DNA from: a virus
DNA: 33,019 nucleotides
IMG/VR virus record: IMGVR_UViG_3300044641_000252
Coordinates: 1 to 33,019 of that record
Direction: 5' to 3' (one strand)
The notes below the pieces were generated by a model, which saw only the letters and a program-made list of their open reading frames with translations, did no database searches and was not told the DNA's origin. Both the position numbers and the translations under genes were made by a program. Below are positions 14,077-33,019 of the stretch, in pieces (within the stretch, counting starts at the first letter, position 1; the number at the start of each line of letters is the position of its first letter).

Positions 14077-17000
14077 ATGGCGAATATCACAAGGAACTTC
14101 ATAGCTGGTAGAATGAATAAAGTCGTTGATGAACGACTTATTCCTGATGGAGAGTATATTGATGCTCTTAATGTTCGCATGGGTTCTACTGAGAACTCAG
14201 AGATTGGTGTTATTGAAAACACTAAAGGGAACACTAAGTTAACAACGCTAAAGTACATTAACGGAACAGCACTTAGTGCATCGGCTAGATGTATAGGTAC
14301 TATAACTGACAATACAAACGAAACTATCTATTGGTTTATTCATGACTCAAACTTCCCGGTAGGTGCTACAGGTAAGCTTGACATGATTGTATCGTTCAAT
14401 GTGTACAACAACATATTGACATATCACTTGATTAGCATCAACGATGGAGGAGGAGTTAATACCACGCTGAACTTTAACCCAGACTATCTTATTACAGGGG
14501 TCAACATTATTGACAACTTATTATTTTTTACAGACGATTACAATCCACCTAGGGTAATTAACTTAGATAAGAACTATCCTGATCCTGTGGGAAACATAGA
14601 CCAGTTTAGTGCTGAGTCTATTCTTGTTATTAAGAAGCCGCCAGTTGAGTCACCTAGTGTAGAACTTATAAATACTGGTGATCAGGAGAACTTCTTGGAG
14701 AGCAGGTTCATTTGCTTTGCGTATCGATATCAGTATGAGGATGGCGAGTATTCAGCTACATCTCAGTGGTCTGACCCTGCGTTTCAACCTAAGCCATTTA
14801 GTTTTAGCATTAACAGCTATCTAAATGATGGCATGCAGAATCAGTACAACACTGCAATTGTAACTTACAATACTGGTGGTCCGCTTGTTAAGGGTATTGA
14901 CTTGCTATTTAAGGAGACCACAAGCAATGTAATTAAGGTCATTGAGAAACTTGACAAGGCTGCTCTTGGACTACTTGATAATATTAATGAAACGTTTACG
15001 TTTACAAATAGTAAAATATTTACAGTTCTCTCAGAAAGTGAGTTGTCTAGACTATTCGACAATGTTCCACTTCTAGCTAAGGCTCAAACTATTATGGGCA
15101 ATAGACTGATGTATGGAAACTACGTTGAGGGGTATGACATGATAGATGATGATGGTAACCCAGTCGAGTTGGAGTACTCTACTACATTGCTATCTGAAGA
15201 GATAAATAACATTGAGATTAATGATTCATTTGATTTTGGATTATATAATTTTGGTGCTATTCCTCCTGTATTTTTTGAGACGATTCCTGACTCTGTGGTA
15301 TATTTGGAGCTTGATGGTCTTGAACTTGTTGAAGGTGCCTCTATTACAGTGGATATGACTTTTGATCATTATTCTTTCACTGGGTTTGTACCATCATTTC
15401 CACCTGAAACCAATGAAAATATATCCCTTACATTCTCATTTATTTTACCTAAGTCTTACAGCTCAGTATATGAGATGGCTTTTAGTCTAGAGTTTAAAGA
15501 TGCTATCGGTTATCTAGGAATCACTAGTAATATTGAGCCTGTTGTTGATGCATGTGATGGTACTACTTTTACTGATCAGTTCAATTGCGCGCTTTCAACT
15601 AATCTAGGCGTATTAACTAAAACTGACAGTGGTATTAATGTTCCTGGTCAAGGTATTGGTATAATTACAACACCTGATAGTACACAGATTGGATTGCAAT
15701 TGCTTACCATGAGGTATGTTGATAACACAGTTTCACCTAGTCCAAGCGTATGGGAGTATTACTCATACAGCTTTGTTGAGGCATTTTATCAAAAGATAAA
15801 TACACCTAGAAGTTTACATAGCAATAGAGGATATGAGATTGGCATTGTTTACATGGATGATTTTAACAGATCAACCACTGCATTAGTAAGTCCAAACAAT
15901 ACGGTTCACGTACCATGTTCTGCATCTGATAATAAAAACTCTATTCAGGTAACTATCCCTACTGCACAGAAGCCACCATACTGGGCTACAAGATACAAGT
16001 TTGTTATCAAGCCAGACGAGGACACGTACGATACTATTTATAGCAGCATATTCTTCAATGATCCATCAACTAATAATACTTACTTCTTGCTTGAAGGTGA
16101 GAATGCTAGGAAGGTTCAGCAGGGTGATCGACTAATTGTGAAGGCAGATACTAATGGTGCTACTAACAGATGTGTGTATGCTACTGTGCTTGAGAAAGAG
16201 TCTCAGGTAGCAGGATTTGTTGAGATACCAAGCCCTACTGATCCAACTGTGGATATAGCTGTTCCGGCTGGAGTATACATAAAGATTAATCCAAATAACT
16301 TTTCTACTGTAACTGATTACAATTCTATTGTATCAGCTGGAACAATTGAGGTAGATCAAAATATACAGGGAGGATACCCTAAGTTAGCCTACCCAATGAA
16401 CATAAAAAAGGAGGCTGGGTATGATCCTTCTAACCCTACATGGGAGTATGAGGATTATACTGTTCCTGCTGGTAGTAGAATACAGATAAACCTTAAGTTC
16501 CAAAGACTTGGTGTTGGCAAAGGTAATGGGTCTTGTGAAACTAGGATATATACCCTAGAGAAGACCATGATTGCATCCGCAAACTATGACAACATGTTGG
16601 AATGGTTTAATGGAGACAATGTTCAGATTATTCTTGATCAAGGTATTCAAGATGTAGGTGGAACTGGATGTGAGATTGAGAATGAGTATCTTGGAACTGA
16701 ATTAGGGGTTTATAATTATACTACAGGACCAGCAACAAGTGCTATTTCAACTCCTTTAACATGTACTAATAAGTATCGATTCGCTAGAAACACAGTGACT
16801 AATGAGTTGACACTAGTTATGTCTGGAACAGTTAGATGTAATGGTGAGTTCTATAGAGAAGGAAGGAGATCTAGTATAATTGCTACTATTGATGTATTTA
16901 GAGCTGATAATATAATCATATTTGAGACTGAGCCAATAGATGCATCTCCAGATATTTTCTTTGAGAATGAGTTATCTCTACCTATTGTAAATGGGTTTCA

Positions 17001-18543
17001 TACAGGAAACATACAGAATCAAACATCTTCTGTACCAGCTATAATTGATACCAAATTCTTTAACTGCTTTACATTTGGTAACGGAGCGGAGAGTTATAAG
17101 ATTCTTGACTCAATCATTGGTAGGACACTATCTCTTGGTAATAGAGTTACAGCAGTCGCTGCTCAAGACTACCAGAGAGTTAGAAGGTTTGCTGATATCA
17201 CCTATAGTGGTGTCTATAACTTTGAGTCCAATGTTAATAAGTTAAATGAGTTTAACCTTGGTCTACTTAACTATAAGTACCTTGAGGTGGCATTTGGCCC
17301 TATCTACATTCTAGATAGTAGTGAGACTAATGTGCTTGTACTACAGGAGGATAAGATATCTTATGTGCTTGCTAGTAAGAACTTGATTTCAGATTCTTCT
17401 GGTGGGGGTACAATCGCTTCAATACCACAGATACTTGGTACTCAGATTGCTAGAACAGAAGAGTATGGAATTAGCTTCCACCCAGAGAGTTATGTGCAGT
17501 GGGGACCTGACAAGTTCTTTACAGATGTAAAGCGTGGTGCTGTGCTTAATCTAAAGGGGGACCAGTTGATAGTGATATCAGAGTTTGGAATGAGGACTTG
17601 GTTTAGAGATGAGTTTATTGAATCATTTAATACTCAGAAACTAGGTGGCTATGATCCGTATCTAAATGAATACGTTTTGACTACGAACTCTGAGGAGTTA
17701 CCTATACCAATTGATTGCATAGCTTGCGGAGTATCTCAGACATTTACTATACCAACTGGAAACACGTTTTCTTACTGCGTTGACCTTGGTCAACCTGTTG
17801 GTGTAACAAATATCAACTATAGTGTCCCTGCTGGATCTTCATCTAACTTTACCATATCTGTAACTTACGATGGTAATGTTGTAACATCTGGACTTGTATC
17901 TACATCTGGAAGTTTACAATTTGAAAAGGATAAGAACAATGTAAATGTAGCGACTATAACTATTGTTGCTAGTGGTCCACTTGAGATTACTGTTGTTCCT
18001 AACTGTCCTATTCAGGAGACTTTAACTATTGTAAAAGTTACATTGACTAGCGTGGTGGATGCAGGCAAGTTTATACATAATGAGTACAGATATACTGATG
18101 GAACTTATGTATCACCATTGCAATCTACTTTTGTTACCTTTGCTGTAGATGATTCAAGTCCTGTGGTTTCTCAGTATGAAATAATATCTGGTCCTCAAGG
18201 GTTTGGAGGGATACCAACAAATGGTTCAAACTTACAGATTATATCGAATAAGATTGTTCCAGATACATTTGATTTTGTTTTAGGTCAAGATAAGTTTAGA
18301 TATTTGCGTAGCAATACCTTATATCCAAATACTTCTGTTGGCATTTCAGGATTACTAGCAGCATCTACGGTTGTTAGTCCGATAACAGGAAGTTCAGGAT
18401 TTTATTCAGGAACTTTCAGTGTGCCTATCAGTGGAAATTATCTTTATCTAATTTGGGATTATAGAAATTCATTGTCTGTAAATCTTTGCTACTCTAATAC
18501 AACTACTCAAGACGCATGCTGCGGCTGCGAAGAACCAACTTAA
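14077..18543 (+). CDS. Large tail hub / muzzle (tail stabilisation) protein
   Basis: A 1488-residue protein forming the main body of the short tail. The N-terminal signature (NFIAGRMNKVVDERLIPDGE, then ALNVRMGS and VIENTKGN) matches the start of large tail-hub proteins of crAss-like phages and, more loosely, T7 gp12. Around residue 585, GYEIGIVYMDDFNRST is another typical block. Residues about 1009-1182 hold the conserved later part (FGPIYILDS, YGISFHPESYVQWGPDKFFT). After that, the sequence changes to beta-sandwich-like modules with a CxxC (C1214, C1217) and a cysteine cluster at the very end (ACCGCEEPT). Those end modules may be exchangeable attachment domains. It is flanked by gaps of 1 nt. 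Confidence 0.82.
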   Translation: MANITRNFIAGRMNKVVDERLIPDGEYIDALNVRMGSTENSEIGVIENTKGNTKLTTLKYINGTALSASARCIGTITDNTNETIYWFIHDSNFPVGATGKLDMIVSFNVYNNILTYHLISINDGGGVNTTLNFNPDYLITGVNIIDNLLFFTDDYNPPRVINLDKNYPDPVGNIDQFSAESILVIKKPPVESPSVELINTGDQENFLESRFICFAYRYQYEDGEYSATSQWSDPAFQPKPFSFSINSYLNDGMQNQYNTAIVTYNTGGPLVKGIDLLFKETTSNVIKVIEKLDKAALGLLDNINETFTFTNSKIFTVLSESELSRLFDNVPLLAKAQTIMGNRLMYGNYVEGYDMIDDDGNPVELEYSTTLLSEEINNIEINDSFDFGLYNFGAIPPVFFETIPDSVVYLELDGLELVEGASITVDMTFDHYSFTGFVPSFPPETNENISLTFSFILPKSYSSVYEMAFSLEFKDAIGYLGITSNIEPVVDACDGTTFTDQFNCALSTNLGVLTKTDSGINVPGQGIGIITTPDSTQIGLQLLTMRYVDNTVSPSPSVWEYYSYSFVEAFYQKINTPRSLHSNRGYEIGIVYMDDFNRSTTALVSPNNTVHVPCSASDNKNSIQVTIPTAQKPPYWATRYKFVIKPDEDTYDTIYSSIFFNDPSTNNTYFLLEGENARKVQQGDRLIVKADTNGATNRCVYATVLEKESQVAGFVEIPSPTDPTVDIAVPAGVYIKINPNNFSTVTDYNSIVSAGTIEVDQNIQGGYPKLAYPMNIKKEAGYDPSNPTWEYEDYTVPAGSRIQINLKFQRLGVGKGNGSCETRIYTLEKTMIASANYDNMLEWFNGDNVQIILDQGIQDVGGTGCEIENEYLGTELGVYNYTTGPATSAISTPLTCTNKYRFARNTVTNELTLVMSGTVRCNGEFYREGRRSSIIATIDVFRADNIIIFETEPIDASPDIFFENELSLPIVNGFHTGNIQNQTSSVPAIIDTKFFNCFTFGNGAESYKILDSIIGRTLSLGNRVTAVAAQDYQRVRRFADITYSGVYNFESNVNKLNEFNLGLLNYKYLEVAFGPIYILDSSETNVLVLQEDKISYVLASKNLISDSSGGGTIASIPQILGTQIARTEEYGISFHPESYVQWGPDKFFTDVKRGAVLNLKGDQLIVISEFGMRTWFRDEFIESFNTQKLGGYDPYLNEYVLTTNSEELPIPIDCIACGVSQTFTIPTGNTFSYCVDLGQPVGVTNINYSVPAGSSSNFTISVTYDGNVVTSGLVSTSGSLQFEKDKNNVNVATITIVASGPLEITVVPNCPIQETLTIVKVTLTSVVDAGKFIHNEYRYTDGTYVSPLQSTFVTFAVDDSSPVVSQYEIISGPQGFGGIPTNGSNLQIISNKIVPDTFDFVLGQDKFRYLRSNTLYPNTSVGISGLLAASTVVSPITGSSGFYSGTFSVPISGNYLYLIWDYRNSLSVNLCYSNTTTQDACCGCEEPT

Positions 18544-19759: not shown

Positions 19760-20566
19760 ATGGCAAACTACACACTATCATATAGCGAATCATCACAGGG
19801 GTGGCCTTCATTCTACTCCTTCATTCCTGACTACATGGTCGGGATGAACAACTACTTCTATACTTTCAAGGGGGGAAACTTGTATCGTCACAATGTGAAT
19901 GAGACCAGAAACAATTTCTATGGTACTCAGTACACGTCTAGAATACAGAGTGTGTTTAACACATCTCCTCTTGAGAATAAGATATTCAAGACCATAAATC
20001 TTGAGGGTAATCATAGTTGGGCAACACTAGCTGAGACCGATATACAGACCTCTGGCTTCATCGAATCAGCATGGTATGAGAAGAAGGAGGCATCATGGTT
20101 TGCGTTCGTCAGAAACGCTGGAACGGTGCCAGCGCAGCCATCAGAGTATGCGCTTAGATCAGTGAATGGTATTGGGCTAAGTCAGAACGTGACTGGTGCT
20201 GCATCAGCATTGAACGTATCGTTTCCTATATCACCTGACCTAACTGAGATTGGTAGCATTGTGAGTGTTGGGGATTACTTGTATTATAGCCTACCTCCTA
20301 GTTATAGTACCCCTGTGTTATGTGGTCAGATTACAAGTATTGTAGTTGACTATCCAACAGGTAATAACAGGATAGTAGTGAATGCATCAATAGCAGGTGG
20401 TAGTGTGCCGGGTATAACTAACCCATTCTTTATGTATATTAAGGGGTCCGTAGCGGAGTCTCATGGTGTGCTAGGACACTATTGCGTATTCACATTGGAG
20501 AACAATAGTACGACTAAGGTTGAGCTATTTGCAGTTGAGTCTGAAGTAATGAAAAGTTATCCTTAA
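19760..20566 (+). CDS. Virion protein linked to the tail hub
   Basis: A 268-residue protein with the sequence WPSFYSFIPDYMVGMNNYFY, then TFKGGNLYRHNVNETRNNFY and NKIFKTINLEGNHSWATLAE near the N-terminus. I recognise this block from structural proteins of crAss-like and other Bacteroidota phages, where similar sequence can form the last part of the tail hub or follow it. The second half is beta-rich (VGDYLYYSLPPSYSTPVLCG). Here it is a separate gene, two genes after the hub. Compared with the gene before it, it has fewer AT-rich codons. Function beyond virion structure is unknown. Confidence 0.72.
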   Translation: MANYTLSYSESSQGWPSFYSFIPDYMVGMNNYFYTFKGGNLYRHNVNETRNNFYGTQYTSRIQSVFNTSPLENKIFKTINLEGNHSWATLAETDIQTSGFIESAWYEKKEASWFAFVRNAGTVPAQPSEYALRSVNGIGLSQNVTGAASALNVSFPISPDLTEIGSIVSVGDYLYYSLPPSYSTPVLCGQITSIVVDYPTGNNRIVVNASIAGGSVPGITNPFFMYIKGSVAESHGVLGHYCVFTLENNSTTKVELFAVESEVMKSYP

Positions 20567-20570
20567 ATTT

Positions 20571-20981
20571 ATGGGAATATTAGTAAGGCAACTAAATGCA
20601 AATGACTACGATGACATCCTAGTGGGATGGTGGAAGGATTGGGGATTGGACGCACCTAGTAGAGACTTCTTACCTGATGATGGTACTAGTGGATTGATTG
20701 TGTTTGATGGTGATGAACCAGTATGTGCTGGGTTTATGTATACCATGAATGCAAAGGTTGCTTGGGTTGAGTGGATAGTATCTAGCAAGACCTATAGAAA
20801 GAAGCCAGCAAGAAAGGAGTGTATAGATTTATTGATTTACACCCTTACTCAGGTTTGCAAAAGTAAAGGGGCTAAGTATGTGTTCTCAAACAATAACAAT
20901 AAACATTTGATTGATAGCTTCATTAATAGTGGGTATGTCAAGGGATGTACAAATTCAACAGAGTTAATAAAAATATTATAA
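20571..20981 (+). CDS. GNAT-like protein within the tail module
   Basis: A 136-residue protein with the layout of a small GNAT acetyltransferase. A first strand and helix (LVRQLNANDYDDILVGWWKD) precede the hairpin GLIVFDGDEPVCAGFMYTMN, the central strand AWVEWIVSS, and a long helix RKECIDLLIYTLTQVCKSKG with a closing strand AKYVFSNNNN. In GNAT enzymes the segment after the central strand binds acetyl-CoA with an R/Q-x-x-G-x-G/A loop. Here it reads SSKTYRKKPARKE, which lacks the glycines, so activity is uncertain. Related proteins sit at the same place in other phages, suggesting a virion or assembly function. The substrate is unknown. Confidence 0.72.
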   Translation: MGILVRQLNANDYDDILVGWWKDWGLDAPSRDFLPDDGTSGLIVFDGDEPVCAGFMYTMNAKVAWVEWIVSSKTYRKKPARKECIDLLIYTLTQVCKSKGAKYVFSNNNNKHLIDSFINSGYVKGCTNSTELIKIL

Positions 20982-20982
20982 C

Positions 20983-21894
20983 ATGGGACTAGAAACAGCA
21001 GCCATAATAGGTATATCAACAGCAATAGCAAGTGCAGGAGCATCTGCTGGACAGGCTGTAAGCGCAGGTCAAGCAGCTAGAAAAGCATCAAGAACTGCTG
21101 AAGACGCATTTAATAAGGCGATGAATGAGTTGAGTGCAAATAGAATTGCAGGGCTCAGCCTACCAAGAGAAGCAATGGAGCGTCAGATTGAGGAAGCTAG
21201 AGGTGCAGGATCAGAGTTAACTCGTGCTGGTGCAGAGAGTGAGAGAGGGGCGGCTGTAATAGCCTCACAGGTGTATAGAGGACAAACAGACGCTCAGAGA
21301 GAGATAGCTGGAGATATAGGTCAGCAACTAATGGGTCTTGAAGCTGCAACTGCTGAGGAAGAAGCTAACCTATCTAGAGCTAGAGCTACTCTAAGTTTGG
21401 CTGAAGCAGAAGGAGCTCAACAAGCTGCTGCTCAGGCTGGTGCTCAGAGTGCTGCTGCTGTTAAAGGAATATTTACAGGGCTTGAATCAGCAGGTCAGCA
21501 ATACCTAGAAGCAAGTGAGTTATATAAATCTAGCGAGGGCGTTAAGCAATATGATAATTTGCTTAAGCAGTACGAGAAAGCCGCAGCAGATAAAACATTA
21601 AACAAACAATTTCTAGATCCTACTACAAATCAGCCTTTGCCGTTTAATATGGTCATATCAAAACTAACAGGTAATAGAGATATCGCCAATAAGATAGGGT
21701 CAATGGATGCGTTAAATGCTAAAGATTATTTAATTAAAAGCCCGAACATAATTAAGTCAATATCAGGAGATGTATTCTCAAGAGGATATGACCCGGGTAT
21801 GGACATTTTAGCACCTAAAAGAAATTTGTCAAGTTCTTTAAATGCATTTTCAAATCCTTCTTTAGGATTTAATACAAACCCATTTGGAAATTAA
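20983..21894 (+). CDS. Internal virion (ejection) protein, Ala-rich helical
   Basis: A 303-residue protein with a small-residue, moderately hydrophobic N-terminus (TAAIIGISTAIASAGASAGQ) followed by a long Ala/Glu-rich helical body (RAGAESERGAAVIASQVYRG, LEAATAEEEANLSRARATLS). This profile, and the place just before larger cargo proteins, are like internal virion protein gp14 of T7-type phages, which is ejected and forms a pore in the outer membrane. The assignment rests on composition and order, not on detectable motif identity. The C-terminal 80 residues are Ser/Asn-rich and probably flexible. It starts 1 nt after the GNAT-like gene. Confidence 0.7.
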   Translation: MGLETAAIIGISTAIASAGASAGQAVSAGQAARKASRTAEDAFNKAMNELSANRIAGLSLPREAMERQIEEARGAGSELTRAGAESERGAAVIASQVYRGQTDAQREIAGDIGQQLMGLEAATAEEEANLSRARATLSLAEAEGAQQAAAQAGAQSAAAVKGIFTGLESAGQQYLEASELYKSSEGVKQYDNLLKQYEKAAADKTLNKQFLDPTTNQPLPFNMVISKLTGNRDIANKIGSMDALNAKDYLIKSPNIIKSISGDVFSRGYDPGMDILAPKRNLSSSLNAFSNPSLGFNTNPFGN

Positions 21895-21897
21895 GGA

Positions 21898-23367
21898 ATG
21901 GCTACATACTATAAATTTGCAGAAAGAGAAGCTGACAGTTTTGTAAACTGGGCAGAGATTGGTAAGGGCCTTACCGACATGCTTCAAGAGCAGATGAAAA
22001 TCCGTGAGGATAAAAGAACTGCTATTGATAAGGTCACTAGAGAGAACCTAAAGAGTTTGTCTGAGGCACCTACTGGAGACCATACTAATCTAAATACTTG
22101 GACTCTTGATTATGCGGACAATGCAAGACAGGCTATCCTGTTACAGGATAGACTACTAAAGTCTGGTGCTCTTAAATTAAAGGACTATACCATAATGCGT
22201 CAGAACCTAAACGATGGTACTGATGAGTTGTTTAGTGTGATTAAAAACTTTCAAACTGCATTCAAAGAGAAGAGAGACAGGATGATAAGTAATGACCCTG
22301 CTAATAAATCTCAAGCGTTTGAGATGGACTTGATGGCTTATACTGAGCAGTTTGGTGACTTCTCTAAATCAAAGGCTATGATTGATCCAAATAACTTTAT
22401 GGTTAATATTGGTATCATGGAGCCTGATCCTGAAAACAAGGGTGTAATGAAGGTTGGTAAGCAGATTGCTCCATCTGGATTCCTAAAGAAGATTCAGAAT
22501 ACCAAGGTTGATTACTTTGATTCTAATGGTGCGGCTGAGGCTGCAAGTAAAAGCTTTGGTGGGTTTACTGAATCTACTATACAAAGTCTGAACAGACTAC
22601 AGGGTAAGGTTGTAACGATTGATGATGTAAGGAAGAGACCTGGATACGAGGAGGCTCTTAATGAAGAGATTAATTCATTCTTCTCTAATCCATTTAATAT
22701 CACATCTGTACTTACTAACGACCTTGTTAAGGACAAGAATGGTAAGTCATACGTGTCAAATATATCAGGCAAGGAAGGCAATGTGATTGAGTATGTGTTT
22801 GACCCTAAGACAAACTTTTATACGCCAAGGCTAACAGCGGAGCAAGAGCAGGCTGCTAGAGATTATATGAGACGTAAGATTGAGAGCAGACTTGATATAA
22901 AACTTAAGGAGGACCCATTCAATAAGCCACAGCCTGACGTAGTAAAGTCTGAAGCACCATCTGCTGGTGGTAACTATTCAGAAAGTGTTAATCAATTTAA
23001 GACCAAATTAAAACAAGTTAAACCGAAAAGAGATAACTATATATTCACTGGTACTGGAGACGTAACAGTTGAAAACCTTCAAAATCTTTTGAGTTCTGAT
23101 CCAGCATTAATAGGTAAGTTTAAAGTATCATCAGTAGATGATGTGGTAACAGTTACTGATAATGATGATGTTCTAATTGGTTCTTATGACTTGTCGAAAA
23201 CAGATGCACGAAATAAAGGAACTGATTTTTTTAAGCAAAGAGAAAGATATCTAGATGACTTAATTAATCGAGTAACAAATTATTCAATCTCTAAAGACCC
23301 AACAATTATTGGTGTATCTTTGATGACAGGACAACAGACAGGAGGGGCTTCACGATTTAATCCTTAA
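21898..23367 (+). CDS. Internal virion (cargo) protein
   Basis: A 489-residue, charged, largely helical protein (ADSFVNWAEIGKGLTDMLQE, then MKIREDKRTAIDKVTREN). It lies between the gp14-like protein and the giant protein, so by order it corresponds to the second ejected protein of short-tailed phages. Residues about 345-375 are a Lys/Pro/Ser-rich linker, after which a small C-terminal domain follows (YIFTGTGDVTVENLQNLLSS, then VVTVTDNDDVLIGSYDLSK). It has no cysteine cluster, signal peptide or catalytic motif that I can see. The next start codon follows after 2 nt. Confidence 0.72.
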   Translation: MATYYKFAEREADSFVNWAEIGKGLTDMLQEQMKIREDKRTAIDKVTRENLKSLSEAPTGDHTNLNTWTLDYADNARQAILLQDRLLKSGALKLKDYTIMRQNLNDGTDELFSVIKNFQTAFKEKRDRMISNDPANKSQAFEMDLMAYTEQFGDFSKSKAMIDPNNFMVNIGIMEPDPENKGVMKVGKQIAPSGFLKKIQNTKVDYFDSNGAAEAASKSFGGFTESTIQSLNRLQGKVVTIDDVRKRPGYEEALNEEINSFFSNPFNITSVLTNDLVKDKNGKSYVSNISGKEGNVIEYVFDPKTNFYTPRLTAEQEQAARDYMRRKIESRLDIKLKEDPFNKPQPDVVKSEAPSAGGNYSESVNQFKTKLKQVKPKRDNYIFTGTGDVTVENLQNLLSSDPALIGKFKVSSVDDVVTVTDNDDVLIGSYDLSKTDARNKGTDFFKQRERYLDDLINRVTNYSISKDPTIIGVSLMTGQQTGGASRFNP

Positions 23368-23369
23368 AA

Positions 23370-26300
23370 ATGAACGAACAGGCTTTAAATTATTCGTATG
23401 AACTATTCAAGAAAGATGGGTATACCGGAACACTTGATCAATACAAACAACTTATAAGTTCAGACAAACAAGCTCTTGATTATTCATATAATCTTTTTAA
23501 GAATGATGGATACTCTGGCAGCGTAAATGATTTCAACCAACTGATTAGCCCTATGGCTGAAAAGCTAGTGGCATCGGAGCCAGTTGAACCAGTAAAAAAA
23601 AAAGATACGGTATCACCATTTGTGGATGGTGGTTCGGGGCTTACAAACTTTGACCCACGTACTGGTCAGGTTGTACAGGAGACTCCTGCATTTGCACAAA
23701 AGCAACCTGAGGTAAAGTTACCTGAGCAGAAACTACCTGCACGTACTGAGTTCCAGTTCCAGCCTGGCAAGCCATTGCCTGCACAAAAGACAGCACCACT
23801 TCCTAAGTTTGTAGAGGAGCAGTTATCTGCTGTTAAACCAGAACTTATAGGTAAGACTGAAGAGAATGTTGTACCACAACTTAAGTATCAGTTCGGTCCA
23901 CTAGGATTTAAGTTTGAAGAAACTGGTGTTGGTGATTTTATGAAAGCCACATCTCCATCAGGAGAGTCTATTGAAATATCTTTGGATATAATTGACCCTG
24001 CTGATAGAGAAGTAGAAGCCAATAAACTAAACGCATTTTTAAGAAAGGGCACCACCGCTGTAAAGAACTTATCCACTTTACAGAAGCAGTACACAGACGC
24101 TAATAAAAAGATTGTATCTCAGAAGGAACTTGATGATTCTCTGGCAAGCATCAATGCAGAAGAGACAAAAATCTTGGCAAGAAACTCTGAGTTCGTTAAG
24201 ACTCAGAATAAACTAGATGCAGAGAAAGCACAACTAGAAAGTGTTCCTGTACAGCAAAGAAACACTCCGGAGTACATTGCTAGAGTAGATGACTTCATAT
24301 CAAGAGCAGACCAGTTCAGTGGTGAATTCCAATCCTTTATAAAGGATGCTCAGGATTTGTCAAAGAGGGGTCAGCAATTAAACAGATCCATAGGCAAGTA
24401 CACTGAGATGAAAGCTCAGCAAGGTACATGGTATGGTGCTGCCTTAAATGCCGTTGCTAATAAGTCAATCTATCAAATGGCTAAAGGTTTTACCGGGGTA
24501 GCTATTGATTTCTTGGGAGAGGTAATACCAACTCAGGCTATAATGAGTCAGGATGATTACGAGAAAAACTTCATAGAGCAGGCTAAGAAGGAAGGTATAG
24601 ATGTATCTGAAGGTGAAGACTTTATATCATTGGCTAACAGACTAGACGAAACCACTCTAGCTAATATAGAGAATAGGGTACGAGATGTAGCAAAGAAGAC
24701 TGTAAAGGGTGATATAATAGGATCTATAGATAAGACTTCTAAGATGGCTATGGAATCATCAGGGGTTTCTCCTGAGTATTACAGGTCAATTGAAGAGACA
24801 TTTGTTGGAGGCGCATTGCTTGGTGCATTGACATCTATACCGGCTATGGCTGGTGGACCAATCGCACGTACAGTATTGATGAGTTCTCAGGTATTGGCAG
24901 GACTGGATGATGAGATGGCTAATGATCCTGCATTTGCAGATGTGTCAGAGAATGAGAAGTTACTAGTTAAGGCTCCAATTGCAGTAGCTGTAGGTATACT
25001 TGAAAGTGTTGGTCTAAGTAACTTATTAAAGCAAAAAGGTTTCTTGAATGGATTAGTGCTTAAGGCATTAGGAAAGGTTGGGACAGGTGCTAGTTACAAG
25101 ACATTTGGAGAAGTAATTAAGAATGAGATTGATAGCGCTATAGGCAGAGGAGCTTTAACTTTAGGGGCTGGTGTTTTAGCAGAAGTTGAAACAGGCGCAT
25201 TACAAGAAGTTGCTGATATCACTGCCAAAGAAATTTACAATATGGCTAAGGAGAAGGAGATGTTTGATACTCCTGACTCTGTGGTACAATTTATTGAGCA
25301 AGTAGGTAAGGCTGGTCTACAGGAAGGTATTGGAGCAGGAGTACTTGCTGTACCGGGTTCTGTATCTGCCGCCTACAGAGGCAAGGGATTCTTAGGAATG
25401 GATGATGCTCAGTTTGCTATGTTCGAAAAGATGGCTAACGACTCAAACATTCAGAAGGGATTCGTTGCTAGGCTTAAGTCTAGAATTAATAACGGTGAGA
25501 TTACTGCTGCTGAGGGTAAGGACATACTTGACAATTATGAAAACTCTGTAAGTTTATTTAACTCATTGCCTGATAACCTTGACATGAGAGGTAAGAAGGA
25601 GGCGATGAACTTGCTTAAGGAGAAGCGTGACTTACAAAAACAAATTGAAGGAAAAGATGAGGCACTTACTGTACCTCAAAGAAATAGAGTAAATGAAATA
25701 AATCAACAACTTACTAAACTATCAGAAGATGCCGTTCAAAAGCAAGCAGCAGGTGAAGTACCTGTACAGCCAGGAACCAGAGTTGGCCAAGAAGTGGCGC
25801 AAGGAGAACCCCAAGCAGAACCTCAAGGCGTTACCCAAGAAGGTCAAGAAAAAATAAATGACATTGAGAGAAGAAGACAAGAGGAACTGAGCACTTACGA
25901 TGAAGAAGGTCTTAATGAAGTTTATGAAGTAGGTAGCGATCAAACTGTAGGAGAGTTTATAAATGCCAAGTATGATGCGGAACTAGCAGCATTAGAACAA
26001 CCTACTCAGGAGGTAGATGTAGAAGGAGAAGTATCAAGACTTGAGCAACTATTTGCAGAGCAAGAGACTGCTCCTACCGTATCTGCTGGTATATCAATAT
26101 CAAATGATGCTGATGTAGAGGAGTTAAGAAATAGAACTAAGTCAAAATCTCAGCAGGCCACAACACAAGAAGAGAAGGAGTCTGTTGATACAAGGGTAAA
26201 GATTATCGATACAGCGAAGAAGGCTATCAAAACATTGAAGTCTGTATTCCCTGATATTGATATTGTAATCCATGATGATGAGGGTAGTTATAATGCTGCA

Positions 26301-29300
26301 ATGGCAGACATGGATGGAGCATCTGGAACTAGAGGCAACTTCTCTTATGATACTACTCCTGATGGTAAGACAACAGGAAGGATTGACATAAATCTATCCA
26401 GAGCTAACTCTAGAACAGTAGCTCATGAGGTTGCTCATGGTATACTATTTAAGACATTTGGAGAGAACGTAAACTTATTCAATGACTTTAGAACAAGACT
26501 ATCCAAGGTACTTAAGGGTGATGCAAATAAGAAACTAAATGATTTTGCTGCTAAGTATGTTGACCCTGTTACAGGACAACTACTAGATGTAAACCATGAG
26601 GAGTTCTTGGCTGAGTTAACTGGTATGTTAGAGCAGCAGGAGACAAGCGTATCTGTAAGTACAATGCAGAAAGTTGCTGCGTTGATTAATGAGTTTGTGT
26701 CTAAGATTACAGGTGGCAAGTTCAAACCATTTGAGGATACTAAGAATACCAAGGACGTAGTTGACTTCTTCAATACTATCTCTGGTGCTATCAGAGAGGG
26801 CAGTGAGATACAGCAACTAAATAGTCAAGAGCCATACTCTTCAGGTGTAGCAATACCTGTAAGTAATCCTCAAGAATTTGTTGGTAAGAAGTTTAAATCT
26901 CAGGTTGATATAGGTGATTATAAATTCCCATCTGGAATAGATATCCTAACAATAGCAGACTTACCTATAAAGACTTTGACTGAATTAGTTAGACAGTATG
27001 AAGGCAGAGTATTAATCATTACAAGTGATGCCACTGGGTATGGTGTAGATAGGAATGGAGACCCAATCCTTGGTGGTTTTGGGTTTGCTTCAAACAAAAA
27101 GAATGTTGATGATGGTATTGGATTTGCAAGTGTTAGTACTGGCACAGTAAGAGGAACTTATACAGCAGCTGAGAAAGCATATGGTACAGGGAAGACTCTT
27201 GTGCTAGTAATGATTCAGCCTCCACATACTACTATCAATAACTCTTATGGTGCTAAGTACATTATCAGAGGGCTAAAAGAAATAGCCGCATCTTCTAAGG
27301 AAGAGTTAGCAAAAACTAAGGATGCCATTAAGAGTTTTATAAAAGGCTCTAAGGCTATTCAAAATGAATTGAAGAATGATCAGGCTGCTTTGAAGAGAGG
27401 ATCAGAGAAGAGATTATTTGACTTGATTGATAGCATAGATGAGAATACCAATTTAGAAGAGGCCGTTAAAGAGTTTCTTAATGACACTACTTTTACAATA
27501 AGAAAGGAACTTGGTAAAGGTATAATCCTTGAGAATAAAAATATAAGAACAAACAAGTCTACTAACTATAGTAAGATTGCACTTAACAATGTTGGGTACA
27601 ACATATATGATTTCCTTAAGGAGTACGGAGACAATACATTCTTGACAGATGATTTAATTCTAAATAATACTGGAGGGTATGTGGTTGGTGGATTTGAATT
27701 AGATGTACTTCCAAAAGAACAGAGAGAGACTTTAATAAATGACATACAAGGAAGTGGTATAGTACATCCATTGTTTAATGCAAAACTTCCTGGAACAAAT
27801 CATTTTAGACTTGATGGCCTATACGATGTTCAAGAAAACTTTTCTGAATATGCTAAGCCTGACACAGAAATTTCTTTATCAAAAGAAGAAAGAGATGCTT
27901 TGGTAAGAGAGATTTATAAGGATGATAAGTTTTATAAGGCAGAGGCTAGATCAATTCCTTTAGATAAAAGATCATATACCAATCTAACTGTTCCAGCTAA
28001 GACTGAATTTAAGGATAAGTATTTAAAACAAAGAGGGTTACTTACAGAGGCCACACCAAATGTGCCTACTAAAGTTGCCAAAGGAGAAGGGTTTATCCCT
28101 AGAGAAGGTGCCGCTGAACAAATGGCGAAGAGAGACTTTGTAAGCAGAACTCAGGATGAAGCTACGCCAAAATCTAAAAGGGTATCTAAGTCTCAGATAA
28201 TTGGAGAGAATGCTCAACTTGAAGCTGTAGTAAGACATGATTTAGGTGTTGCTAAAATTCTATCTAGAGAAGGATTGCTACCACAAAGAACTAAACTCAT
28301 TACTGGATGGGAGTTGGGATCTGATGGTAAGTGGAGATATGAAATACCAGATGGTAAGTTCAAAGAGAATATTGATATCAGTTCTCCTTCTAAACTGTCA
28401 GATATATTTGATGCCCCTGAATTGTATAAGGCATATCCTGAAGCAAGGAACATAGAGGTTGAGTTTAAATTGTTGCCAGAAAAAGAGTTTGGTAATTTTA
28501 GTCCAGACACAGGGGCAATTATAATAAACAGATCAAAATATAAGAATGATAGAGCGGCTGCTGAGCTGACTATGCTTCATGAAATCCAGCACTGGATACA
28601 AGTAAAAGAGATATTTCAAGGAGGGTCAAGTGTTGTACAGGCAGAATTCAAGATGAAAAAAATTGTTGACTACTTTGAAAAGTTAGTCAAGAAGAGAGAG
28701 AGTATATATGATTCAGCAAGATTATTTTATTCAGACAATCAAGAGGTAGTTAAGGAAGCAAAAGAACTTCTAGACTTTGCTAAAAGCCAATACGATATAG
28801 TTAAAGAATTAACATTTGAAAAAGGCACTAAGGAAGAGAAGGCAAAAGCCACTGAGATGATAAAAAATCTCAGCGAATATGCAAAGAGAGGAATCCCATC
28901 TGCTCAGAATCTTATTGATGAATTGTCTAAGAAGAATCCTGCCGAAGCATTTAATCTTTACTATCGAGTAGCAGGAGAGGTTGAGGCAAGAAATGTAGAG
29001 TACAGAAATAAATTGACCAAAAGTCAAAAAAGAAATATCCTACTTTCTGACACTGAGAATATAGACAGAGATGATCAAATCATGATTGACTCATTTGACT
29101 TTATATTTCAGGCTGATGAAATGAAGAATGAGTTCAGAGTTTCAAAGTCTCAACTAGATGATCAGGACAGAATAAATAAATTAATCAATGATGCAAGGGC
29201 TCAGGGTTTCTCTGAGGAGGCTATCATATTATTCTTACAGCGTAAGGGTCTGACTGATAAGGCTATCGATACTGCAATGGCTAAGGCTGAGCCTGCTGCC

Positions 29301-32300
29301 AAGAAGGTTGAGGTGACTGAGGAGTTTGCTCCTGGGTATGACAGAGTTCTCAATAACATGTTTGGGAAAGATGGTGTAGTCGCCAAGTCACGTAGACGTG
29401 GTGTATCTGAGGAAGATACAATGCAGAATGCCATCAACTACCTACGTGGTACGAAGGTATACGAGAATGCTACTGACGTACAGCGTGAGGCTATGGAACG
29501 CAATGTGAACAAGGAGTTTAAGAAGCGTGAGAAGCGTGCTCCTAGTGCTGAGAAGGTAGTAGGTAAGCCAAAGAAGAAGGAGGTTACTGTCGATGAGATG
29601 GCAGCATTGAAGGACCAGATAAAGCTTGAAGCAAGAGCAGCAAGAGAAGCCAAGGGAGATCTTAATACCAAGCGAAAAGCATTGGCTGCTAAGATTATTG
29701 CTGCTAGAAAGAAGGGTACCATTACTGCTGCACAAGCTAGGGCTTTAGTAAATAGAATTAGCAAAGTCAATCTTGATAATCCCATCATGGTAGATAGGTT
29801 GCTTGCATACATCGAGAAGGTATTTGATAATGCCAACTATGCTGCTGACATGGCTGAGTTAAGAAAACTACAGAAGCAGGCTAAATCAAGGAAACATACA
29901 TCAATGAGTAATCTTGTTGATAGATTCACATCTATTAACCCAGAACTTATACCACTAGATAAAATACAGGAATATAAGGAGGCACTTGACTTCTTGAATA
30001 ATAGAACTCCTTCTTATTCCAAAATGAATGAGATGCTTTCTGAAATTGAATCTTATCAGGTTGCCGACCAATTCGATGCAGTTAAGACAAAGGATGGTCT
30101 TATGGATAAGTTCAATAGTATACTATCCAATAAAGTTGAAAGTGTAGAGGATTATATTGAATTAATAAAAGATATCAATTCATTCAAGAGAAAGGCATAC
30201 CAGTTACTACAGAACGAAGTTATTACCCAGGAAGAGTATGAGGATTTAATTGATGGAGCTGGAAAGAACCAGGCTACTATTGAGAAGAAGTTTGCAGAAC
30301 AAATCAAAAAGATAAAGAGCGATTTAATATCTGAGATAAAGACGCAGCGACCAAAGACTAATCCTGAATTCACCAAGGAAGAGAATGATTTAATCAAGGA
30401 GTACCTAGAACTTAGCGATGCTGACCTTGAGAGTCTATCCCCTGAGGAACTATTCATTTTAAATGACTTACTAGAAAACATTAGCAATGGAGAGATAGAT
30501 GTATTTAGATTTGGAAACATCGTATCTAAAGCATCTAAAAATAAAGAGGGTGTTGCTGTTGGTAAGCAACTAAAAGGATCTAAGTTAAGCCTTGGTTCAG
30601 CAGAACTAAGAAAGAAGATGGCTCAGTTTGAAAGTTCATTCTGGGAGGGGCTTCTTGGGTTAGGCAGAGCCACATCAGGGCCATTACAAAAGTTTATTAT
30701 ATCTCCATTCAATAGAGCAATTGGTTCTTATGAGAAGTTCTTAAGAGATGGATACAATGATTTCTTAAAGCTTAAGAAAAAGTATAAGATTGATGATTCT
30801 AAGTTAATAAAAAGTACTAAGCAAATGACTAAAATAGGTATGCTAACCACATATCTACAGGAGTATATGGCTCAGTTTGATCCTAATAATAAGGGTGTTG
30901 ATAATATCGGAAAGCGTGATTGGTTCAAGGAAATCTTGGCTAGTGAAACCATGAGAGATGACTACTCTCCTGAAGAGTTAAAGATTATTGAAGAGGTATA
31001 TAAGAGTCTACCTAAGGACAAGGATGGTAATGTAGATCCAAAGGCGGTGTACGATAGCTACATGGCTAATGATGGTAAGTTCTTTACTGAAAATGAGAAG
31101 GGATTCTTTGATGAGGTAATGGAGTGGAAGAAGAAAAATTCAACATCAAAGCAGAAGGCCGCTAATGAGATGAATGGTAATCCATTCAAGGAGATTCCTT
31201 TCCACATGCTTAGATCAAGGTACGGAAGTTCAGCTCCTCAAATTGCACCAAGTACATCTGGTGACAATGGAATGGTACGAATCAAGGCTGGTACCGGTAA
31301 GGAAAGAGTTAGTGAAGCAGTAGGTGCAATCAATACAAACTTTGAGAAGTTATTCATCAAAGGACTTGAGCAGACTGGTAGAGATTACTTCTTATCCAAG
31401 GCATTAAAGGATATCAACAACGTGTTGGCATCTGCTAAGAAAGAACTTGCTGGAGATAAAGATCCGCTAGTTAAGGCTATATCTTATACGCTATCTGATG
31501 CATTGGCTTATGAGTTCAGTGATACCGCTAGTCAGAACATATTGAAGAGATTGGTTCAGGCTAGAGCTGCAATGACATTGTTTGATCCTATCAGAGCAGG
31601 AGTAGAATTTACATCTACCCTACTATCATTTGGTCTTAGAGCAAGAACATTATCTGGATATAAGAACTTGTTTGGTAGTCAGGGAGATATGAAAAATCTA
31701 CTTGAGTTTACTAATAGCCCTCTAAGATTGAGACAGAATATCAACAATGCAATTGATATCAATGATGGTAGGATAGAACCACAGGGTATGTTTATGAAGT
31801 GGACCAACTTCCTATCTGGTCTTCCAGAAAGAACGATGATGGTTACCTCATGGATGCCAACATTCACTAATGAGTTTCAGAATATCACAGGTGAGAAGTT
31901 TGACATGAAGAAGTTCAATGATAGCGAAGCATACAGAGAGAAGTATGGTAAGGCTATTAAGGATGCTTCTGCTGTTGCTGATGCACAGACTGAAAAGATT
32001 ATTGGTCCAACTACAAAGGCTGGTCAGAGAAGAGACATTATAATTTTCCCTGGCAAAACTGTTGGTAGAGATACAGTGTCTGGTCAGATACTTGGCTTCT
32101 TTAGTAACTATCCTTACCGAGAAATAACTGAATTCTTTAATGGATTTAGGGAAGCGTTAGAAGTATTGAAGAAGGGTGATACAGTAGATTCATTAAGCAA
32201 ATTGCAGAAGCCTCTTGGTATTGCTTTGAACGTGGCTGCTTACGGATTCTTGTCATCAGTAGTGTACGCTTCTAGATTGATTCTTTTTGGAGATGATGAA

Positions 32301-33019
32301 GAGGAAGAGAGAGGAGAAAAGTTATTGGAAGAGTTGATGACTACTAAAGGATTTATTGAGGAGACCGCAGCAAACGCAGCAGCATTAGCAGCAAGCAAGT
32401 ATGCAGGCGGTGGTAGAGCAATTCTACAATTACTTGGTACACTTGGAATGATGCTTACTGACAATGAGGAAACAAAGGCTACAATTAAAAAGATGCTAAA
32501 GGGTAGTGTCTATGTAGATCCTCTTCCTACTCAGAAGTTAAGTGGATATGGTACCGCTGATAAAGTAAATTCAGCAATAATAAAATACATTCCTCAGTTT
32601 GTGGTGCTTAGTAATTTAATTCTAGATGGAATGGGTGCAGTTAATGAATTCAAAACCATAATTGATAAGGTTCAAAATAAAGGTGTAGAAGAATTAACAG
32701 AAGATGAGGAACTAAAAGTACTAGCATTAAGCGTTATGTTTACTGCGACTCAATTATTCCTAAACTATAGAGGAACATCTTTACCATCTTACAACAACTT
32801 GAAGGCAGGAATGAAGGCAGTAAAAGAAGAAGCCGGAGTTGCTGATATAGCAGCAGGTAATGAACCTACTAAGAAGAAATCATCTGGTGGTGGTGGAAGC
32901 AGCAGAGGTGGAGGTATGAATAAGACCGACATGAAAAAGTTTAACCCTGAGTTATATGATAAGATGTACGGGCCTGGATCTGCTGCGTATGAAATAGAGC
33001 AAGAGGTTAAAGCCTTCGA
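23370..33019 (+). CDS. Giant polyvalent cargo protein with two zinc-metallopeptidase domains (3' end outside window)
   Basis: An open frame from the ATG at 23370 to the right edge, at least 3216 residues. In order: a 30-residue tandem repeat (3-32, 33-62); a Pro/Lys-rich linker; coiled coils; Gly/Ala-rich hydrophobic segments (FVGGALLGALTSIPAMAGG, from residue 478) and GALQEVADITAKEI near 610; a zincin with HEVAH (1019-1023) and EEFLAE (1076-1081); an unidentified domain (about 1171-1500); a second peptidase domain with HEIQH (1737-1741) resembling domain LPD23 of phage polyvalent proteins; long helices; and a late region (about 2611-2950, with GFFSNYPYRE) like other LPD-type modules. A Gly-rich linker lies near 3175. 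Such proteins are packaged and ejected to disarm or remodel the host. Function is inferred from architecture. Confidence 0.88.
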   Translation, partial: MNEQALNYSYELFKKDGYTGTLDQYKQLISSDKQALDYSYNLFKNDGYSGSVNDFNQLISPMAEKLVASEPVEPVKKKDTVSPFVDGGSGLTNFDPRTGQVVQETPAFAQKQPEVKLPEQKLPARTEFQFQPGKPLPAQKTAPLPKFVEEQLSAVKPELIGKTEENVVPQLKYQFGPLGFKFEETGVGDFMKATSPSGESIEISLDIIDPADREVEANKLNAFLRKGTTAVKNLSTLQKQYTDANKKIVSQKELDDSLASINAEETKILARNSEFVKTQNKLDAEKAQLESVPVQQRNTPEYIARVDDFISRADQFSGEFQSFIKDAQDLSKRGQQLNRSIGKYTEMKAQQGTWYGAALNAVANKSIYQMAKGFTGVAIDFLGEVIPTQAIMSQDDYEKNFIEQAKKEGIDVSEGEDFISLANRLDETTLANIENRVRDVAKKTVKGDIIGSIDKTSKMAMESSGVSPEYYRSIEETFVGGALLGALTSIPAMAGGPIARTVLMSSQVLAGLDDEMANDPAFADVSENEKLLVKAPIAVAVGILESVGLSNLLKQKGFLNGLVLKALGKVGTGASYKTFGEVIKNEIDSAIGRGALTLGAGVLAEVETGALQEVADITAKEIYNMAKEKEMFDTPDSVVQFIEQVGKAGLQEGIGAGVLAVPGSVSAAYRGKGFLGMDDAQFAMFEKMANDSNIQKGFVARLKSRINNGEITAAEGKDILDNYENSVSLFNSLPDNLDMRGKKEAMNLLKEKRDLQKQIEGKDEALTVPQRNRVNEINQQLTKLSEDAVQKQAAGEVPVQPGTRVGQEVAQGEPQAEPQGVTQEGQEKINDIERRRQEELSTYDEEGLNEVYEVGSDQTVGEFINAKYDAELAALEQPTQEVDVEGEVSRLEQLFAEQETAPTVSAGISISNDADVEELRNRTKSKSQQATTQEEKESVDTRVKIIDTAKKAIKTLKSVFPDIDIVIHDDEGSYNAAMADMDGASGTRGNFSYDTTPDGKTTGRIDINLSRANSRTVAHEVAHGILFKTFGENVNLFNDFRTRLSKVLKGDANKKLNDFAAKYVDPVTGQLLDVNHEEFLAELTGMLEQQETSVSVSTMQKVAALINEFVSKITGGKFKPFEDTKNTKDVVDFFNTISGAIREGSEIQQLNSQEPYSSGVAIPVSNPQEFVGKKFKSQVDIGDYKFPSGIDILTIADLPIKTLTELVRQYEGRVLIITSDATGYGVDRNGDPILGGFGFASNKKNVDDGIGFASVSTGTVRGTYTAAEKAYGTGKTLVLVMIQPPHTTINNSYGAKYIIRGLKEIAASSKEELAKTKDAIKSFIKGSKAIQNELKNDQAALKRGSEKRLFDLIDSIDENTNLEEAVKEFLNDTTFTIRKELGKGIILENKNIRTNKSTNYSKIALNNVGYNIYDFLKEYGDNTFLTDDLILNNTGGYVVGGFELDVLPKEQRETLINDIQGSGIVHPLFNAKLPGTNHFRLDGLYDVQENFSEYAKPDTEISLSKEERDALVREIYKDDKFYKAEARSIPLDKRSYTNLTVPAKTEFKDKYLKQRGLLTEATPNVPTKVAKGEGFIPREGAAEQMAKRDFVSRTQDEATPKSKRVSKSQIIGENAQLEAVVRHDLGVAKILSREGLLPQRTKLITGWELGSDGKWRYEIPDGKFKENIDISSPSKLSDIFDAPELYKAYPEARNIEVEFKLLPEKEFGNFSPDTGAIIINRSKYKNDRAAAELTMLHEIQHWIQVKEIFQGGSSVVQAEFKMKKIVDYFEKLVKKRESIYDSARLFYSDNQEVVKEAKELLDFAKSQYDIVKELTFEKGTKEEKAKATEMIKNLSEYAKRGIPSAQNLIDELSKKNPAEAFNLYYRVAGEVEARNVEYRNKLTKSQKRNILLSDTENIDRDDQIMIDSFDFIFQADEMKNEFRVSKSQLDDQDRINKLINDARAQGFSEEAIILFLQRKGLTDKAIDTAMAKAEPAAKKVEVTEEFAPGYDRVLNNMFGKDGVVAKSRRRGVSEEDTMQNAINYLRGTKVYENATDVQREAMERNVNKEFKKREKRAPSAEKVVGKPKKKEVTVDEMAALKDQIKLEARAAREAKGDLNTKRKALAAKIIAARKKGTITAAQARALVNRISKVNLDNPIMVDRLLAYIEKVFDNANYAADMAELRKLQKQAKSRKHTSMSNLVDRFTSINPELIPLDKIQEYKEALDFLNNRTPSYSKMNEMLSEIESYQVADQFDAVKTKDGLMDKFNSILSNKVESVEDYIELIKDINSFKRKAYQLLQNEVITQEEYEDLIDGAGKNQATIEKKFAEQIKKIKSDLISEIKTQRPKTNPEFTKEENDLIKEYLELSDADLESLSPEELFILNDLLENISNGEIDVFRFGNIVSKASKNKEGVAVGKQLKGSKLSLGSAELRKKMAQFESSFWEGLLGLGRATSGPLQKFIISPFNRAIGSYEKFLRDGYNDFLKLKKKYKIDDSKLIKSTKQMTKIGMLTTYLQEYMAQFDPNNKGVDNIGKRDWFKEILASETMRDDYSPEELKIIEEVYKSLPKDKDGNVDPKAVYDSYMANDGKFFTENEKGFFDEVMEWKKKNSTSKQKAANEMNGNPFKEIPFHMLRSRYGSSAPQIAPSTSGDNGMVRIKAGTGKERVSEAVGAINTNFEKLFIKGLEQTGRDYFLSKALKDINNVLASAKKELAGDKDPLVKAISYTLSDALAYEFSDTASQNILKRLVQARAAMTLFDPIRAGVEFTSTLLSFGLRARTLSGYKNLFGSQGDMKNLLEFTNSPLRLRQNINNAIDINDGRIEPQGMFMKWTNFLSGLPERTMMVTSWMPTFTNEFQNITGEKFDMKKFNDSEAYREKYGKAIKDASAVADAQTEKIIGPTTKAGQRRDIIIFPGKTVGRDTVSGQILGFFSNYPYREITEFFNGFREALEVLKKGDTVDSLSKLQKPLGIALNVAAYGFLSSVVYASRLILFGDDEEEERGEKLLEELMTTKGFIEETAANAAALAASKYAGGGRAILQLLGTLGMMLTDNEETKATIKKMLKGSVYVDPLPTQKLSGYGTADKVNSAIIKYIPQFVVLSNLILDGMGAVNEFKTIIDKVQNKGVEELTEDEELKVLALSVMFTATQLFLNYRGTSLPSYNNLKAGMKAVKEEAGVADIAAGNEPTKKKSSGGGGSSRGGGMNKTDMKKFNPELYDKMYGPGSAAYEIEQEVKAF
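23376..23555 (+). repeat. Tandem 30-residue repeat at the start of the giant protein
   Basis: Two copies of 90 nt in one frame. Copy one has ALNYSYELFKKDGYTGTLDQ and copy two has ALDYSYNLFKNDGYSGSVND, and both end in QLIS. The shared pattern is QAL-x-YSY-x-LFK-x-DGY-x-G, with exact 30-residue spacing. It could be a packaging or docking signal, since it precedes a flexible linker. Confidence 0.88.
26421..26613 (+). other. First zinc-metallopeptidase motif in the giant protein
   Basis: AHEVAHGILFKTFG supplies the HExxH zinc site (H1019, E1020, H1023). About 55 residues later NHEEFLAEL (E1076, E1077, E1081) offers the third ligand. The strand before it, GRIDINLSRANSRT, is the usual edge strand of such zincins. 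This HExxH plus EExxAE arrangement is frequent in peptidase modules of phage and plasmid polyvalent proteins. Confidence 0.85.
28206..28640 (+). other. Second zinc-metallopeptidase domain, LPD23-like
   Basis: LITGWELGSDGKWRYEIPDG, then SKLSDIFDAPELYKAYPEAR, then TGAIIINRSKY and MLHEIQHWIQVKEIFQGGSS. The GW-x-G-x-DGKWR-x-EI start, the L-x-AYP block and the LHEIQHxIQ zinc motif (H1737, E1738, H1741) followed by GGS are the pattern I know as large polyvalent protein-associated domain 23. All lie in the frame of the giant gene. Confidence 0.85.

Follow-up and report, generated by a model that had tools for sequence, protein, structure and literature searches.

Two zincin-like domains of different families in one giant, probably virion-borne protein of a viral contig

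The locus and the giant frame

The window (the whole stretch of DNA that was analysed, 33,019 nucleotides) is a 33-kb virus contig, IMG/VR record IMGVR_UViG_3300044641_000252, and the source record holds no sequence beyond it. A giant gene lies at its right-hand end, after the terminase, portal and nozzle/muzzle genes in one late operon (Table 1); the window also encodes a tail fibre, a GroES-like protein and a homing-type endonuclease. The giant frame (23370..33017, + strand, 3216 codons) continues past the window edge. In a 98% identical copy on an independent contig (L002) the frame closes at 3234 aa, so the full product, here called the mega-protein, should comprise about 3236 aa, with some 20 codons beyond the window. 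The same copy agrees with the window DNA at 97.7% identity over 19.6 kb, both HExxH sites included, which rules out an assembly chimera as the source of the two-site arrangement. It also reveals leftward frames next to the giant gene, which is the final gene of the rightward late operon.

Table 1. Features of the mega-protein and its neighbours in the window. Fractions are aligned p1 or p2 rows, recruited in part by the motifs themselves
Feature	Position	Strand	Basis
Nozzle/muzzle protein gene	14077..18543	+	crAss_MUZ over aa 6-233; homologue of phi40:1 gp097
303-aa protein, Gly/Ala-rich N-terminus, T7 gp14-like place	20983..21894	+	similar to elemo gp22 (E 5e-4)
489-aa left neighbour, T7 gp15-like place	21898..23367	+	position
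Mega-protein gene	23370..33019	+	ATG; 3216 aa visible, open at window end
N-terminal chassis, aa 1-827 (N-chassis HMM region aa 441-821)	23370..25850	+	ends at recurrent breakpoint aa 827
Hydrophobic stretch, aa 531-549, membrane-helix candidate	24960..25016	+	Kyte-Doolittle, 19-residue window > 1.6
Exchangeable bay, aa ~828-1962	25851..29253	+	replaced, shortened or lost in sisters
p1, first zincin-like domain, aa 896-1160	26055..26849	+	p1 profile, alignment, model
HEVAH, aa 1019-1023, presumed p1 zinc site	26424..26438	+	H1019 48/48, E1020 48/48, H1023 45/48
EEFLAE, aa 1077-1082; E1078 presumed third zinc ligand of p1	26598..26615	+	E1078 48/48
mod2, between the peptidases, aa 1161-1600	26850..28169	+	no Pfam match in window
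p2, LPD23-linked zincin, aa 1601-1930	28170..29159	+	LPD23 match, alignment, model
LPD23 (Pfam PF18838), aa 1612-1664	28203..28361	+	31.7 bits, gathering cut-off 27
HEIQH, aa 1737-1741, presumed p2 zinc site	28578..28592	+	58/58
GEVEARN, aa 1869-1875; E1870 presumed third zinc ligand of p2	28974..28994	+	E1870 58/58
C-terminal chassis, aa 1940 onward	29187..33019	+	comparison with relatives

The nozzle protein is a homologue of gp097 of Cellulophaga phage phi40:1 (Pervagoviridae; 3e-147). Its crAss_MUZ match is confined to the N-terminal part, aa 6-233 (profile positions 4-207 of 1224), and no assignment to the crassviruses was made. A separate gene of 268 aa (19760-20566) corresponds to the C-terminal part of the nozzle proteins found in phi40:1 and in Flavobacterium phage elemo (Elemovirus), so the nozzle gene of the window looks split; between the two parts sits a 403-aa gene (18545-19756) without a PHROG or Pfam match. 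The following 136-aa gene (20571-20981) is similar to elemo gp23 and phi40:1 gp098, which occupy the equivalent place; it appears GNAT-like by eye, and Pfam returned nothing for it. The homing/HNH-type endonuclease gene (5496-6158) lies between terminase and portal, where the elemo and phi40:1 records list no pre-portal gene.

The preliminary description likened the two genes directly left of the giant gene to T7-type ejected proteins. The likeness is plausible from position and character, the two being gp14/gp15-like in size and character only and the giant gene lying after the nozzle, but neither has a PHROG of known ejection function. The mega-protein itself matched no PHROG family at E 0.1 and no lytic transglycosylase or amidase domain in Pfam at E up to 1, and neither database linked it to known ejection proteins. 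The hydrophobic stretch listed in Table 1 is the sole strongly hydrophobic one of the visible chain. In tblastn searches of deposited phages the visible protein (first 2977 aa) retrieved 75 records at E 1e-5, of which the best covers 16% at 25% identity; the N-terminal chassis and one distant p1, used as separate queries, returned nothing at E 0.01. A search for PF00940 (N4-like virion RNA polymerase), made outside the window, found it in 0 of 7 relatives' records and also in 0 of 14 control genomes, and is thus uninformative.

Two zincin-like domains

The mega-protein contains exactly two HExxH motifs, HEVAH at residue 1019 and HEIQH at residue 1737, and the preliminary description was right to place them some 718 residues apart in a single frame of more than 3216 residues. 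The number expected from the composition is 0.004, and 2000 shuffles of the chain gave one motif seven times and two motifs never, so that chance occurrence was rejected. The surroundings of the motifs do differ, as had been claimed: EEFLAE follows the first site, at residue 1077, and at E 1e-3 the p1 profile matches the window only at residues 924-1161 and the p2 profile only at 1613-1906. At the level of sequence, the assignment of the two sites to two different zincin-like families is supported.

A Pfam LPD search of the full protein, suggested in the preliminary description, placed LPD23 above its gathering cut-off. The proposal that HEIQH belongs to an LPD23-like domain was correct as to the presence of LPD23; the motif itself lies 73 residues past the LPD23 match, in the zincin that follows. 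LPD23 was matched at E 0.01 in all 58 aligned relatives of p2, in which H1737, E1738, Q1740, H1741, Q1744, G1869, E1870 and R1874 are invariant; this invariance, like that of the p1 ligands, is partly by construction, because both sets were recruited with patterns covering parts of the active sites (for p2, HE[ILV]QH[AW]IQ and [AS]GEVEARN). The Peptidase M78/IrrE family of Pfam matches eight of the 58 relatives at E 0.01 and not the p2 of the window, and the putative metallopeptidase family DUF6782 (PF20573) matches 31 of the 58 at the same threshold, its scores in the window (16.2 and 20.0 bits) falling below the cut-off of 27.

For p2, the alignment query yielded 472 or more related stretches on viral contigs, the best 80 of the 472 being kept, and tblastn at E up to 0.01 found 43 deposited phage records and seven plasmids. 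Plasmid proteins with p2 relatives include one near tra genes in Bacteroides ovatus, while in Pseudomonas phage AF the relative lies inside a giant protein (gp16) encoded after two annotated internal virion proteins. The same LPD23-p2 block is carried by phage AF gp16, by the Bacteroides plasmid protein and by gp60 of phage H66. The p1 query found 59 loci, and the p1 of the window has no Pfam match. Nine of 63 p1 clusters (L126, L127 and L129-L135) read HExxE (HETWE, HEAWE or HEVFE) at the presumed second ligand; they form a family branch whose site is altered.

Structure prediction, likewise suggested earlier, gave a confident AlphaFold model of p2 (pLDDT 90.7, pTM 0.84) and a modest one of p1 with mod2 (pLDDT 71.3, pTM 0.50). 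Neither model has a PDB match at E 0.001, and no VIA-align Z score reaches 8. The first ten Foldseek rows for p2 against the PDB are all jannalysin, selecase or PprI (best E 0.37, not significant). In VIA-align, selecase, jannalysin, abylysin and IrrE/PprI appear for p2 at Z 4.8-5.8; unrelated helical rows rank higher, up to Z 7.0, mostly on the part between the halves of the site, and IrrE/PprI aligns to model residues 66-291, spanning both halves. A phmmer search of PDB sequences gave one irrelevant weak match for p2 and none for p1 with mod2.

For the p1 and mod2 model, Foldseek against the PDB found nothing significant (best E 0.75), unrelated proteins leading the list. In VIA-align, 12 of the first 13 rows are lethal factor (residues 43-254), Certhrax or PPEP-1, at Z 5.3-6.3 over 135-168 residues, and the thirteenth is a designed protein; mod2 is hardly covered. 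The fold shared by lethal factor, Certhrax and PPEP-1 that p1 resembles is one we take to be M34-type. Against BFVD, the best match of the model is the structural protein of elemo (3.5e-10). A link between lethal factor and a polyvalent MPTase has been drawn by Iyer et al. (PMC5512222). The zincin fold matches of p1 and p2 are suggestive, not significant; the reading of two different zincin-like domains in one chain draws its support from motif conservation and from the confident p2 model.

Conserved chassis halves and an exchangeable bay

In the sisters compared, the chassis is 61-98% identical to that of the window, and both peptidases lie inside the region that is exchanged. Compared with eight sisters at the DNA level, the window loses identity at residues 827, 882, 1151, 1593 and about 1962, each border being common to two to six sisters. 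In L005/L006, p1 and mod2 are kept and p2 is replaced; in L007 and L013 everything downstream of p1 is replaced; in L010 and L014, p1, mod2 and p2 have all given way to a stretch with one HEFAH or HEFGH; and L012 is without the p2 slot. Methyltransf_23 was matched below the cut-off in the p2 slot of the L005, L007 and L013 bays (E 4e-4 to 2e-3) and in the L026 bay (1.4e-4). The L003 bay is 97.4% identical to that of the window over 3.56 kb, against mostly 74-88% in the aligned pieces flanking it (one 123-bp piece reaches 92.7%), a pattern most simply explained if both peptidases moved together in a recent transfer.

Among nine bays scanned, the distant ones hold ART-PolyVal in L038 (1.4e-15), DUF7178 in L041 and GNAT domains in L039 (just at the cut-off) and in L037 and L046 (below it). 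Where both chassis halves were found, the distance between them ranges from 24 to 1532 aa.

Queries with the whole protein and the two chassis halves gave 38 contigs, window and elemo included. Eleven were dropped for the count of complete relatives (the window, elemo, six end-open frames, two closed frames without a C-chassis match and one broken gene), leaving 27, of which two, L052 and L056, look identical over the giant gene. HExxH is absent from 12 of these, single in 13 and double in two. None of the 12 close complete relatives, defined by a best segment of 60% identity or more, is without an HExxH, its family varying, and the peptidase-free relatives are distant members together with L029 (55%); three distant members, L038, L059 and L061, have one site each. 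When loci recruited through p1 or p2 were added, 37 closed chassis frames were available, with two sites in 11, one in 12 and none in 14; this table counts the end-open window as well as its 98% relative, one two-site frame (L117) has an HEEEH outside p1 and p2 that may be due to chance, and two of the 14 frames without a site are pieces of broken genes. All 34 HExxH motifs in these frames lie upstream of the C-terminal chassis, and p2 occurs in 10 frames, each time together with p1. In L009 (10001-18914) and L139 the giant gene is spread over several frames, by decay or sequencing errors.

In 121 clusters formed at 95% identity, chassis-bearing or not, p1 precedes p2 in 16 of the 16 having both, a figure that is not a probability because related sequences are not independent. 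Two or more HExxH occur in 46 of the 64 clusters with p2 and in 17 of the 63 with p1 (length 1000 aa or more); these are not population rates, since recruitment used active-site patterns and p2 was limited to the best 80 of 472. In this sample, p2 is thus usually accompanied by another HExxH. Two unusual arrangements were seen: a 1596-aa protein without the chassis (L155, 2854-8132) combines p1, mod2, p2 and GNAT, with a ferritin-like gene directly after it, and one frame (L105, 2062-12642) has three HExxH and, besides p1, matches the p2 profile at three separate places.

Probable role and relation to known systems

That the mega-protein is ejected cargo, as the preliminary description proposed, is supported by position and homology only. 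In phi40:1 the gene order of portal, nozzle, a 132-aa gene, two more genes and gp101 (1691 aa) is that of the window, the 132-aa gene resembles the 136-aa gene of the window (1e-6), and the record gives MS/MS detection for gp097 to gp101. Profile searches detected no similarity between gp101 and the mega-protein chassis, so gp101 is a counterpart by position only. For p2, the record of phage H66 remarks of gp60 (PLxRFG protein, 3787 aa, containing the p2 block) that it was 'verified by mass spectrometry as part ...'. Gene product 20 of elemo (3694 aa) is annotated 'structural protein'; a literature search retrieved no paper on the elemo virion proteome, PMC7077304 dealing with other phages.

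Two zincin-like families, conserved ligands, an exchangeable bay and a late-gene position can be read directly from the sequence; packaging of the mega-protein, its injection, catalysis and targets are inferred. The mega-protein is probably a virion-borne ejection protein that doubles as a carrier of polyvalent effectors, and the virus itself would be a podovirus with relatives among the Flavobacterium and Cellulophaga phages. Packaging and passage into the cell would need the two conserved halves, N- and C-terminal, and the bay would carry enzymes as payload, folding and acting inside the host once injected, here the zincin p1, mod2 and the LPD23-zincin p2. It is most likely that p2 is an injected effector. 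It would cleave a host protein, plausibly a defence or regulatory one, since the metallopeptidases that it matches in fold comparisons are small gluzincins and IrrE/PprI. Because the p2 slot takes a methyltransferase-like domain in L005, L007 and L013, whose chassis is 63-83% identical, and distant bays hold ART or GNAT domains or are nearly empty, p2 would be payload rather than part of the delivery machine. For p1, the role may be that of a second effector or of a domain freeing the payload.

A different reading, distinctly less probable and still worth serious attention, is cleavage of the chain by one of the zincins, p1 being the likeliest, either ahead of packaging or once the protein has been ejected; this would free the other domains, with p2 as payload or helper. 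Iyer et al. (PMC5512222) propose for the MPTases of polyvalent proteins both self-processing, on the grounds of the processing of P1 DdrB, and host-directed effector action; according to the same survey, N4 vRNAP, which has an MPTase, is packaged uncut, and ArdC/TraC1 is transferred uncut, which argues against cleavage of the chain. The persistence of at least one HExxH in all 12 close complete relatives, even as its family changes, leaves room for a processing role of p1, and it is for this reason, together with the constant upstream place of p1 (16 of 16 clusters with both) and the absence from this chassis of any p2 without p1 (10 of 10 closed frames), that processing or release by p1 retains a minor share of the probability. 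Against it stand the 12 of 27 complete relatives that lack HExxH, two of them with bays of 24 and 57 aa, and the variation of zincin number and family among relatives; bay exchange and the peptidase-free relatives argue against either HExxH being needed for the chassis.

Two further readings are improbable. The zincins might clear a path for the ejectosome by cutting proteins of the envelope or periplasm, or cross-linked peptides. The place of the giant gene after the nozzle and two gp14/gp15-sized genes, and the one membrane-helix candidate, are compatible with this, and the N-terminal peptidoglycan-hydrolase domain of T7 gp16 is periplasmic and can swap to the gp15 homologue (PMC8954989). 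Such an entry role fits poorly with same-chassis relatives that have no HExxH at all, with the lack of a lytic transglycosylase or amidase match in the mega-protein, and with the p2 relatives in plasmid proteins, for instance near tra genes in Bacteroides ovatus, where there is no phage ejectosome. Marginally less credit can be given to the idea that one or both zincins are catalytically inactive and serve as binding or structural modules: the HExxE clusters of p1 suggest that the fold can persist with an altered site, but both sites of the window are intact, with ligands invariant or nearly so in the 48 p1 and 58 p2 rows, partly by construction.

A more organised arrangement may be put forward tentatively: one conserved ejection chassis with a dedicated bay exchanged by recombination, in which p1 would release or activate and the slots behind it would take interchangeable effectors (an LPD23-zincin or methyltransferase-like domain; in distant members GNAT or ADP-ribosyltransferase). 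If so, the chassis would represent a natural protein-delivery scaffold with defined insertion borders.

Among deposited relatives, elemo gp20 shares the C-terminal chassis (8.5e-35) and p1 (2.3e-29) with the mega-protein and differs in having DUF3293 and one HExxH. Manatee Spring podovirus MW202828, the deposited relative with the closest portal (76.7%), encodes a giant protein of 3859 aa (L217, 741-12320) that shares the N-terminal chassis (1.3e-42) and also has two HExxH; both are HEFGH (residues 1615 and 2500), and neither is p1 or p2 by HMM at E 0.01. Its annotation as 'reticulocyte binding/rhoptry protein' looks mistaken. The LPD23 (PF18838) proteins of phages and plasmids have the LPD23-p2 block in common with the mega-protein, whereas this chassis was found in 0 of 58 p2-only clusters (HMM, E 1e-3).

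The giant gene closes a series of nozzle, small, medium and giant genes, as T7 gp16-type genes do, and its place recalls crAss001, in which large cargo proteins are encoded after the muzzle gene (PMC10172136). Sequence likeness to T7 gp16-type or crassvirus cargo proteins was not seen, and the gp16 homologues described in PMC8954989 measure 609-1337 aa, against about 3236 aa with a bay of effector-like enzymes here.

Large phage proteins with one to five zincins have already been described by Iyer et al. 2017 (PMC5512222), in whose polyvalent set about 36% carry 1-5 MPTases, about 8% of these in more than one copy. Like the polyvalent proteins of that survey, the mega-protein is very large, is encoded by a late virion gene and combines zincins, unrelated domains and an LPD domain: p1, mod2, LPD23-p2 and two chassis halves lie in one chain of about 3236 aa, the gene has the position of a late virion gene, and domain content is shuffled among relatives by replacements and at the bay breakpoints. 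It differs from the proteins as presented there in its two distinct zincin families in fixed order, its bay with mapped DNA breakpoints and its conserved chassis, of which searches of the open-library literature retrieved no earlier description. Domain swapping among ejection proteins has likewise been reported (Swanson et al. 2022, PMC8954989). Because multi-zincin polyvalent proteins and such swapping are on record in these two papers, the finding as originally posed is of a known kind, and the mega-protein illustrates well a type of multi-tool viral protein that has been described before. What is added here is the dissection of the bay, together with its borders and the order in which the two zincins stand, and p1 is delimited as a zincin-like family that Pfam does not match in the window. 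The usual view treats each polyvalent protein as an isolated oddity of architecture; close sisters show nearly to the residue which parts are kept and which are exchanged, and this comparison makes the question of whether a peptidase serves the virion or acts on the host testable in cultured relatives such as elemo and phi40:1.
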